A DNA stretch of 64,000 bases, taken from positions 1 to 64,000 of the forward strand of contig NZ_LAZS01000014.1 in assembly GCF_002007205.1 (NCBI RefSeq), in the 5' to 3' direction. The notes beneath the pieces were generated by a model. That model worked only from the letters and a program-made list of their open reading frames with translations. It searched no databases and was not told the DNA's origin. The stretch's first letter is position 1; each line of letters opens with the position of its first letter. The stretch is from Ensifer adhaerens. GTDB taxonomy: Bacteria; Pseudomonadota; Alphaproteobacteria; Rhizobiales; Rhizobiaceae. Position numbers and translations under genes: made by a program. Positions 38,385-40,724 of the stretch are shown one piece after another.

Positions 38385-39599
38385 TTACGCGACGGCGCGG
38401 GCCAGCGCGCAGCGCGACCACAGCGAATGCAGGGCGCCGACCAGATGGTCGATGTCGGCGTCCGAATGCAGCGGCGTCGGGGTGATGCGCAGGCGCTCGG
38501 TCTTCTTCGGCACCGTCGGATAGTTGATCGGCTGCACGTAGACGCCGAAATTGTCGAGCAGGAGATCCGAGATCCACTTGCACTTGGCGGCGTCGCCAAC
38601 CATCACCGGCACGATATGACTCGGGTTCGGCATGTGCGGAATGCCGCGCTGGTCGAGCAGCGAACGCAGGCGACGCACACGCTCCTGATGGGCGAAGCGT
38701 TCGACCTGGCTTTCCTTCAGGTGACGGATCGAGGCGAGCGCGCCGGCGGCAAGCGTCGGCGGCAGCGCCGTCGTGAAGATGAAGCCGGAGGCAAACGAAC
38801 GGATGAAATCGCAAAGTGCGGCAGAGCCGGTGATATAGCCGCCCATGACGCCGAAGGCCTTGCCGAGCGTGCCTTCGATGACCGTCAGCCGGTGCATCAG
38901 GCCTTCGCGCTCGGCAATGCCGCCACCGCGCGGGCCGTACATGCCGACGGCATGCACTTCGTCGAGATAGGTCATGGCGCCGTACTTGTCGGCGAGGTCG
39001 CAGAATTCCTTGATCGGCGCGATGTCGCCGTCCATGGAGTAGACGGACTCGAAAGCAATGAGCTTCGGCGCACGCGGATCGGCAGCGGCGAGCTTGGCTT
39101 CGAGGTCAGCGACCGAATTGTGCTTGAAGATGACGCGTTCGCACTTGGAGTGACGGATCCCCTCGATCATCGAAGCGTGATTCCCGGCGTCCGAGAAGAC
39201 GATGACGCCAGGAATCTTCGAACAGAGCGTGCCGAGTGCGGCCCAGTTGGACACGTAGCCCGAGGTGAACAGCAGCGCCGATTCCTTGCCGTGCAAGTCC
39301 GCGAGCTCGCGCTCAAGCAGGACGTGGTAGTGGTTGGTACCGGAGATGTTGCGGGTGCCGCCGGCACCGGCGCCGCATTCGTCGATCGCGCGCTTCATCG
39401 CCTCGGTGACGATGGAATGCTGGCCCATGCCGAGATAGTCGTTCGAACACCAGACGGTGACTTCCTGAACGCCGTCAGCTGTATGGCGCGCCGCCTTCGG
39501 GAATTGGCCGCGATGGCGGGCGATGTCCGCGAAAACCCGGTAGCGGCCTTCCTGATGCAGCCCGTCCAGCTCGTTCTTAAAGAAATTCTCGAAATCCAT
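38385..39599 (-). CDS. hemA: 5-aminolevulinate synthase
   Basis: Condenses glycine and succinyl-CoA, the first step of haem synthesis by the C4 (Shemin) route used by alphaproteobacteria. The protein is 404 aa, the standard bacterial length. The PLP lysine is Lys247 in [30 protein letters not shown] and [15 protein letters not shown] are also conserved. The ATG at 39599 is 7 bases from GGAGA; an ATG just before it (39602) is an alternative. The 327-base region upstream has an FNR/FixK box, so oxygen control is likely. Monocistronic. Confidence 0.96.
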
Positions 39600-39847
39600 C
39601 ATCTTCTCCAGTGCCCGGCCGCTTTTTTCAATCAAAGCGACCTGGGGTCAACCTCGGAATGCCCGGCATGTGCCAACTGCGGCAAAAGGCCCTTCAACCC
39701 CTGCCCGCCCAGCGAATGCATCCGAGATGATCTAGCATTTTTGATCCTGAGCATCTTCGCTGCTTTCACTGAAACCATTTCAACCAGAACAGCCCTAGTT
39801 TTGAAACATTCCAAAGAAAGCCTTAGCGCATGTTCATCTCTTCAAGC

Positions 39848-39861
39848 TTGATCGAAGTCAA
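39848..39861 (-). promoter_or_regulatory. FNR/FixK-type box upstream of hemA
   Basis: TTGAT-CGAA-GTCAA fits the FNR/FixK consensus TTGAT-N4-ATCAA with one mismatch, and the dyad extends to GCTTGA-N6-TCAAGC. It is centred about 255 bases upstream of the hemA ATG, the same side as a -10-like GCTAAG at 39827-39822, giving the -40 spacing of a class II activated promoter. The rest of 39600-39870 shows no gene. Confidence 0.6.
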
Positions 39862-39870
39862 GCAAGGAAG

Positions 39871-39894
39871 AAAAAAGGACGGCCGAAGCCGCCC
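39871..39894 (-). terminator. intrinsic terminator of the coxMLS-like operon
   Basis: On the minus strand GGGCGGC-TTCG-GCCGTCC forms a 7-bp stem with a tetraloop, followed by TTTTTT. It is 33 bases after the stop of the medium-subunit gene. Confidence 0.85.
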
Positions 39895-39926
39895 TTTTTC
39901 GCTGTTTGTATGGCGGCACTGGGCGG

Positions 39927-40724
39927 TCATGCCGCAGCCACGGCGCGCTTGGCCATGACCTTCACCAGATTGGCGCGATAGGCCGCGTCGGCGTGAATGT
40001 CGGAGAGCAGCTCCGAGGCATCGACGCTGATATGGGCGAGCGCATCCGGCGACCAGTTGGCGGAAAGCGCCGCCTCCATCTCCGCCTGGCGAAAGACGCC
40101 GTTTGATCCCGCACCGGTGACTGCGACCCGGACCTCGCCATTGTCCCCTTTGGCGACGAAGACGCCGGTCATCGCATAGCGCGAGGCCGGATTGGGGAAT
40201 TTCTGGTAGGCGGCCTTGGCCGGCGCATCGAAGCGAACGGCAGTGATGATCTCGCTGTCCTCCAGCGCCGTTTCGAACAGGCCGGTGAAGAAATCGTCCG
40301 CGGCGATCTCGCGCCGGTTGGTCACGATCGTCGCGGCGAGCGCCAGCATCGCTGCCGGATAGTCGGCCGCCGGGTCGTTGTTGGCGATGGACCCGCCGAT
40401 CGTGCCCATGTGGCGTACATGCGGATCGCCGATATGGCTGGCGAGATGGCAGATCGCCGGACAGACGGCCTTGAGTGCCGCCGACGAGGCCACCTCATAA
40501 TGGGTCGTAGCCGCGCCGATCCGCACGGATCGACCATTGACCGTGATGCCCTGCATCTCGGAAATGTGCCTGAGGTCGATCAGGTCGCTCGGCGACGCCA
40601 GCCGCTGCTTCATGGTCGGGATGAGCGTCATGCCGCCGGAGACATATTTGCCTTCGCCGGCCGCTTCCATTCGGCTGACGGCGTCCTGAACCGAGGACGC
40701 CCGGTGATATTGTGTCTCGTACAT
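39927..40724 (-). CDS. Molybdenum hydroxylase, medium FAD-binding subunit (CoxM-like)
   Basis: Flavoprotein subunit of 265 aa of a xanthine-oxidase-family enzyme. The FAD pyrophosphate motifs are YVSGGMTLIPTMKQRL (about 28-43) and TIGGSIANNDPAADYPA (about 108-124). The C-terminal CO_deh_flav_C domain follows. It is the last gene of a three-gene operon (small, large, medium), 15 bases after the large subunit. Usually transfers electrons from the iron-sulphur subunit to the quinone or another acceptor. Confidence 0.9.
   Translation of the reverse strand: MYETQYHRASSVQDAVSRMEAAGEGKYVSGGMTLIPTMKQRLASPSDLIDLRHISEMQGITVNGRSVRIGAATTHYEVASSAALKAVCPAICHLASHIGDPHVRHMGTIGGSIANNDPAADYPAAMLALAATIVTNRREIAADDFFTGLFETALEDSEIITAVRFDAPAKAAYQKFPNPASRYAMTGVFVAKGDNGEVRVAVTGAGSNGVFRQAEMEAALSANWSPDALAHISVDASELLSDIHADAAYRANLVKVMAKRAVAAA

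Follow-up and report, generated by a model that had tools for sequence, protein, structure and literature searches.

The stretch of DNA analysed here (the window), 64,000 nucleotides in length, carries on its reverse strand at 38385..39599 the gene hemA for 5-aminolevulinate synthase (404 aa; TIGR01821, 707 bits against a cut-off of 338.55), and the position of the ATG is identical in the hemA orthologues, i.e. the start is a common one. Upstream on the same strand, at 39848..39861, is an FNR/FixK-type box, TTGACTTCGATCAA as read on the hemA strand and TTGATCGAAGTCAA in forward-strand letters. It lies 248-262 bases from the ATG and one mismatch from TTGATNNNNATCAA, so that the sequence and place given for it in a preliminary description of this DNA are correct. 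On the far side of the box is a gene (39927-40724, also on the reverse strand) whose product is FAD-binding-subunit-like, its best family match being below the cut-off of that family. Its 3′ end faces the box, and since it ends toward the box on the hemA strand, hemA is the sole target seen for the latter. A GC-rich hairpin followed by a run of Ts (39871..39899, reverse strand) is, from a by-eye reading, the probable terminator of the upstream genes; it is absent from the list yielded by a terminator scan of the region.

The box has the TTGA-N6-TCAA dyad of FNR/FixK sites and is close to TTGAT-N4-ATCAA, the consensus being that given in the available parts of PMC4999443, PMC6710368 and PMC3050613. 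No other site in the window comes as close as one mismatch to TTGATNNNNATCAA; with up to two mismatches the window has 20 matches, compared with a shuffle mean of 12.83 and a largest shuffled count of 19. The genome, with 6,874,104 bases in all, has 30 matches to TTGAYNNNNRTCAA versus 4 to the reversed pattern, or 26 when a cluster of four identical palindromes on contig C21 is left aside. The extension of the box to a 6-bp dyad, GCTTGA-TCGAAG-TCAAGC, to which attention had been drawn earlier, is present, but its outer bases differ among relatives and it therefore carries little meaning as evidence.

Twenty-one bases after the box (31 centre to centre) is a -10-like hexamer, CTAAGG (39821..39826, reverse strand), from which a transcription start at 39814, within a base or two, is predicted. 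With direct activation by FNR/FixK the site is at about -40 to -42 from the start, and the fixed 21-base gap to the hexamer would put the present box at such an activating position. A TA step begins 22 bases past the box in 50 of the 71 hemA promoters with an intact box, with 9 more having it one base earlier (12 and 4, respectively, among 21 representatives). In the genome itself, CTA is 21 bases past the box in 6 of 48 oriented segments (from 24 of the 30 sites), those of hemA and hemN among the six; no other offset between 10 and 39 has CTA in more than 1 segment. Comparison thus supports a geometry that would be that of direct activation, as the preliminary description had it. A sigma-70 consensus scan of 39500-40000 found no promoter, an outcome to be expected for an activator-dependent promoter and one that does not confirm it.

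The preliminary description had called for a comparison among sinorhizobia; a wider one was made here with 80 named hemA loci, the best 80 of 585 relatives, which with the window give 81 regions. The 400 bases upstream of each hemA were scanned, with 40 rounds of dinucleotide shuffles and the reversed pattern as control. An intact box is present in 71 of the 81, i.e. in 70 of the 80 named loci, many of them close kin, and in the window; the same regions when shuffled gave a mean of 0.175 (maximum 1), and the reversed pattern 0/81. In the window's genus the box precedes hemA in 16/16 genomes, its own genome counted. Across Rhizobiaceae the four spacer bases change and the half-sites stay, as judged from 28 representatives of less than 75% identity drawn from 73 rows that differ from TTGACNNNNATCAA by no more than one base, a choice that biases the arm columns and leaves the others unbiased. 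Outside Rhizobiaceae the box is rare: 141 genomes of the order gave a hit, and among the 29 best-matching loci taken from them 3 have an intact box, the hemA start being uncertain in some. From such comparison, the FNR/FixK box before hemA can be taken as confirmed, both as real and as widely conserved. In 10 of the 80 it is damaged: L013, L021 (S. meliloti 4H41), L024 (S. medicae), L042, L044, L047, L048, L071, L076 and L083. The genus of L021, with 33 genomes of which 31 hemA regions were seen, has 4 with a damaged box.

A cognate regulator is encoded in the genome in the form of an FnrN-like protein (L132) with FNR-type cysteines at 21, 24, 32, 120 and 121, though its best family, FnrL, is matched at 232 bits and so below the cut-off of 300. 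Its gene is divergent from hemN, and the two have a perfect TTGATCAAAATCAA in common. Other boxes in the genome precede ccoN, ccmC and a pseudoazurin gene which, like hemN, have family matches above cut-off, and also petA-, napF- and alcohol dehydrogenase-like genes judged from protein reading only; several of the remaining sites are within genes or far from gene starts. FnrN was surveyed in 50 genomes picked non-randomly from the 80 to include all ten damaged loci, E values of 1e-45 or below being counted as hits. Of the 34 genomes with an FnrN hit 31 have an intact box, as do 9 of the 16 without (Fisher p 0.007, a value that ignores kinship), so in these genomes FnrN appears associated with presence of the box. 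In the genus of L021 the box is kept in 13/16 genomes without an FnrN hit and in 14 of the 15 seen with one, the single damaged box among the latter being in a genome whose FnrN hit has 63% identity. FnrN as the sole user of the box was rejected in view of the 9 of 16 tested genomes that have an intact box and no FnrN; since the box is retained there, FixK-type proteins stay candidates. A FixK-like protein of S. meliloti is about equally similar to the genome's own FnrN and to the FixK-like regulator L131, at 33% each. Elsewhere in the genome, at L202 (C21 407300-417608), TTGACAGCTGTCAA occurs four times over a span of about 10 kb, once directly before the gene for L131, and these copies are perhaps operators of a local regulator. 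At L201 (C19 181016) a perfect TTGATCAGGATCAA is about 19 bases before a cytochrome oxidase subunit II-like ORF, where the site of an activator would not be expected.

A second element overlaps the predicted start, 32 bases downstream of the box: TTTGGAATGTTTCAAAA (39799..39815, reverse strand), of the type associated with iron control by Irr. The canonical Irr element is TTTAGAA-N3-TTCTAAA, from which the hemA dyad, TTTGGAA-N3-TTCAAAA, differs at both fourth bases; it fits the relaxed form TTTNGAA-N3-TTCNAAA exactly. In the genome TTTNGAANNNTTCNAAA is found at 5 places and the reversed pattern at 1. The four places other than hemA adjoin a cysteine-desulfurase gene, rirA together with a solute-binding-protein gene, an nfu gene, and mbfA; genes of these four kinds are Irr targets elsewhere, so that the hemA element is in the company of known targets. 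Irr is encoded by the genome as well (NF045678, 232 bits against a cut-off of 150). Of the 81 hemA regions, 35 have an exact copy of the element, 52 a copy with no more than one mismatch and 67 one with no more than two, the corresponding means for shuffled regions being 0, 0.1 and 2.25; the reversed pattern gave 0 regions at the first of these limits and 5 at the second. The other 14 regions lack a match even when two mismatches are allowed. Both sites are present in 57 promoters (the element again having at most two mismatches), and in 56 of them the element starts 28-32 bases past the box. From its sequence and its setting, the element before hemA is likely an Irr-type site, and its overlap with the start suggests repression. 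As a separate observation, five genomes of the window's genus also carry a paralogue of hemA (L101-L105, about 70% identity), which has the FNR box in 0/5 cases and is without the iron element, L103 having a two-mismatch match.

The leader from the predicted start near 39814 to the ATG is about 215 bases. That length, proposed earlier, stands, but it is peculiar to this lineage: in close relatives the box is about 150-160 bases before the hemA ATG. A segment of about 100 bases (39695..39795, reverse strand, limits approximate), between the iron element and TTTTGCCGCAG, is missing from L009 and L010, both close relatives; in the S. meliloti line its place is taken by another segment. The possibility that it is a repeated element was rejected, its copy number in the genome being one. 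Nearer the gene, TTTTGCCGCAG (39677..39687, reverse strand) is a conserved leader motif, with TTTG[CT]CGCA in 35 of the 36 leaders scanned (missing in L069). It is followed by GGTTGAC (39647..39653, reverse strand), conserved in relatives and a candidate -35 of a second, gene-proximal hemA promoter, for which no convincing -10 partner was seen. Both are conserved in leaders without the FNR box too, and they are possibly a second promoter or a leader signal; hemA of S. meliloti has two promoters. A search of the leader against Rfam gave no family near its gathering score. A match to a Brucella sRNA family at 39797-39900 (reverse strand; E 0.00098, 23.2 bits versus a gathering score of 218) is probably meaningless. 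The main text of a paper on S. meliloti start sites (PMC3616915) does not mention hemA.

A model can build on the sites, on how well they are conserved and how they are spaced, on the presence of FnrN-like and Irr proteins, and on the genes that neighbour the sites; from these we infer the binding of the regulators, the place of the start, whether each input raises or lowers hemA, and how the inputs combine. In this model hemA would be regulated from a core promoter on the reverse strand at 39799-39861. An activator of the FNR family, most probably the genome's own FnrN or else a FixK-type relative, would bind TTGAC-N4-ATCAA, centred about 40 bases before the start. FnrN is active at low oxygen, when its iron-sulphur cluster remains intact, and the bound activator would bring RNA polymerase to the -10-like element that lies 21 bases further on. 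When iron is short, haem-free Irr would bind TTTGGAATGTTTCAAAA across the start and block it, with the consequence that hemA would be raised when oxygen is low and the supply of iron and haem permits. That FnrN or FixK activates hemA at low oxygen and Irr blocks it at low iron is a reading in which we have reasonable, though far from complete, confidence. Haem production is thus probably on when oxygen is scarce and iron available. The proposal in the preliminary description of low-oxygen control of hemA gains support from the comparison of relatives, but it overlooked the Irr-type element, and the oxygen input is probably no more than half of the regulation.

Should control be by oxygen only, the dyad TTTGGAA-N3-TTCAAAA would be an initial transcribed or leader element and no Irr site. 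Its deviation from the canonical element would then be accounted for, conservation at a start site can have other causes, and in what is available of PMC11442138 and PMC3836376 Irr control of Bradyrhizobium haem synthesis is placed at hemB. Such an explanation fares poorly with the other four genome matches of the pattern, all of which adjoin iron or iron-sulphur genes, and with the ten loci whose box is damaged, where the dyad is exact in seven and within two mismatches in the other three. On balance, it is unlikely.

A different view of the box makes it mainly the -35 (CTTGAC) of an ordinary sigma-70 promoter, with FNR binding, if any, being repressive. Of the 70 intact named loci, 68 have TTGAC as their upstream half, and where damaged boxes can be aligned (the six at L013, L021, L024, L042, L044 and L048) TTGAC is kept and every change falls in the downstream half; the TTGAC half may be under a constraint of its own. 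In intact loci, however, the downstream half is conserved equally with the upstream half. Moreover, no conserved -10-like element is present 17 bases past TTGAC, where one would be needed, and the conserved TA is 29-30 bases past it; a repressing geometry with TTGAC as -35 was rejected on that ground. The sigma-70 consensus scan is also without a promoter, and TTGAC...ATCAA is a common form among Rhodobacter FnrL sites too, as tabulated in an available part of PMC2908626, all of which makes a -35 role as the main one improbable. That the box is a chance site without function is harder still to credit: about 4 such palindromes are expected in a genome of this size from the reversed control, but chance does not account for conservation at fixed spacing in 71 of 81 regions and in 16/16 genomes of the window's genus.

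Promoter control by both oxygen and iron, the reading preferred here, has a broader form. Rhizobiaceae would have a two-input hemA promoter with near-fixed spacing of the FnrN/FixK and Irr sites, from which S. meliloti and S. medicae have lost the oxygen input and kept the iron input; the balance tips somewhat in favour of this wider proposal. If it is true, the S. meliloti/S. medicae line is a ready natural experiment, and hemA of the model S. meliloti, its oxygen site damaged in the loci seen, is unusual. Control of this kind would keep the supply of haem in step with the high-affinity haem oxidases that soil and symbiotic bacteria make at low oxygen, and would avoid a pile-up of porphyrin when iron is short. 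A search of titles and abstracts met no hemA promoter with oxygen-plus-Irr control; the alphaproteobacterial iron-regulon literature may well name hemA as an Irr target, and no priority is claimed.

One close parallel is the predicted Rhizobiales FnrN/FixK regulon, where hemA, hemC and hemN are in a list of genes with FnrN/FixK sites (PMC4999443, in part). The site at hemA is alike, though those parts of that paper neither name the genomes that carry it nor describe an adjoining iron element; the present box adds another case to the FnrN/FixK hemA sites already in print. In R. sphaeroides a table in the available portion of PMC2908626 gives an FnrL site, TTGATccttATCAA, for hemA. The R. sphaeroides case has in common with the present one an FNR-type site and low-oxygen control of the first haem step, but the pair of half-sites differs, and regulation is experimental there and inferred here. 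For Bradyrhizobium diazoefficiens, according to sections of PMC6515984, low oxygen raises the hemA transcript, as is proposed here, while the level of HemA protein is unchanged and iron control is by another route. Since HemA protein there does not track its transcript, a promoter site need not mean more enzyme. Irr binds its element only without haem, and represses or activates according to position (PMC7762939, in part). Deletion of irr in S. fredii gave no symbiotic defect in what is described in part of PMC8822346. In Bradyrhizobium japonicum Irr represses hemB at low iron (PMC11442138, from the section available). The idea that Irr restrains haem precursor synthesis when iron is short is thus common to both, but the target in B. 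japonicum is hemB, at the second step, whereas the element described here is at hemA, at the first.
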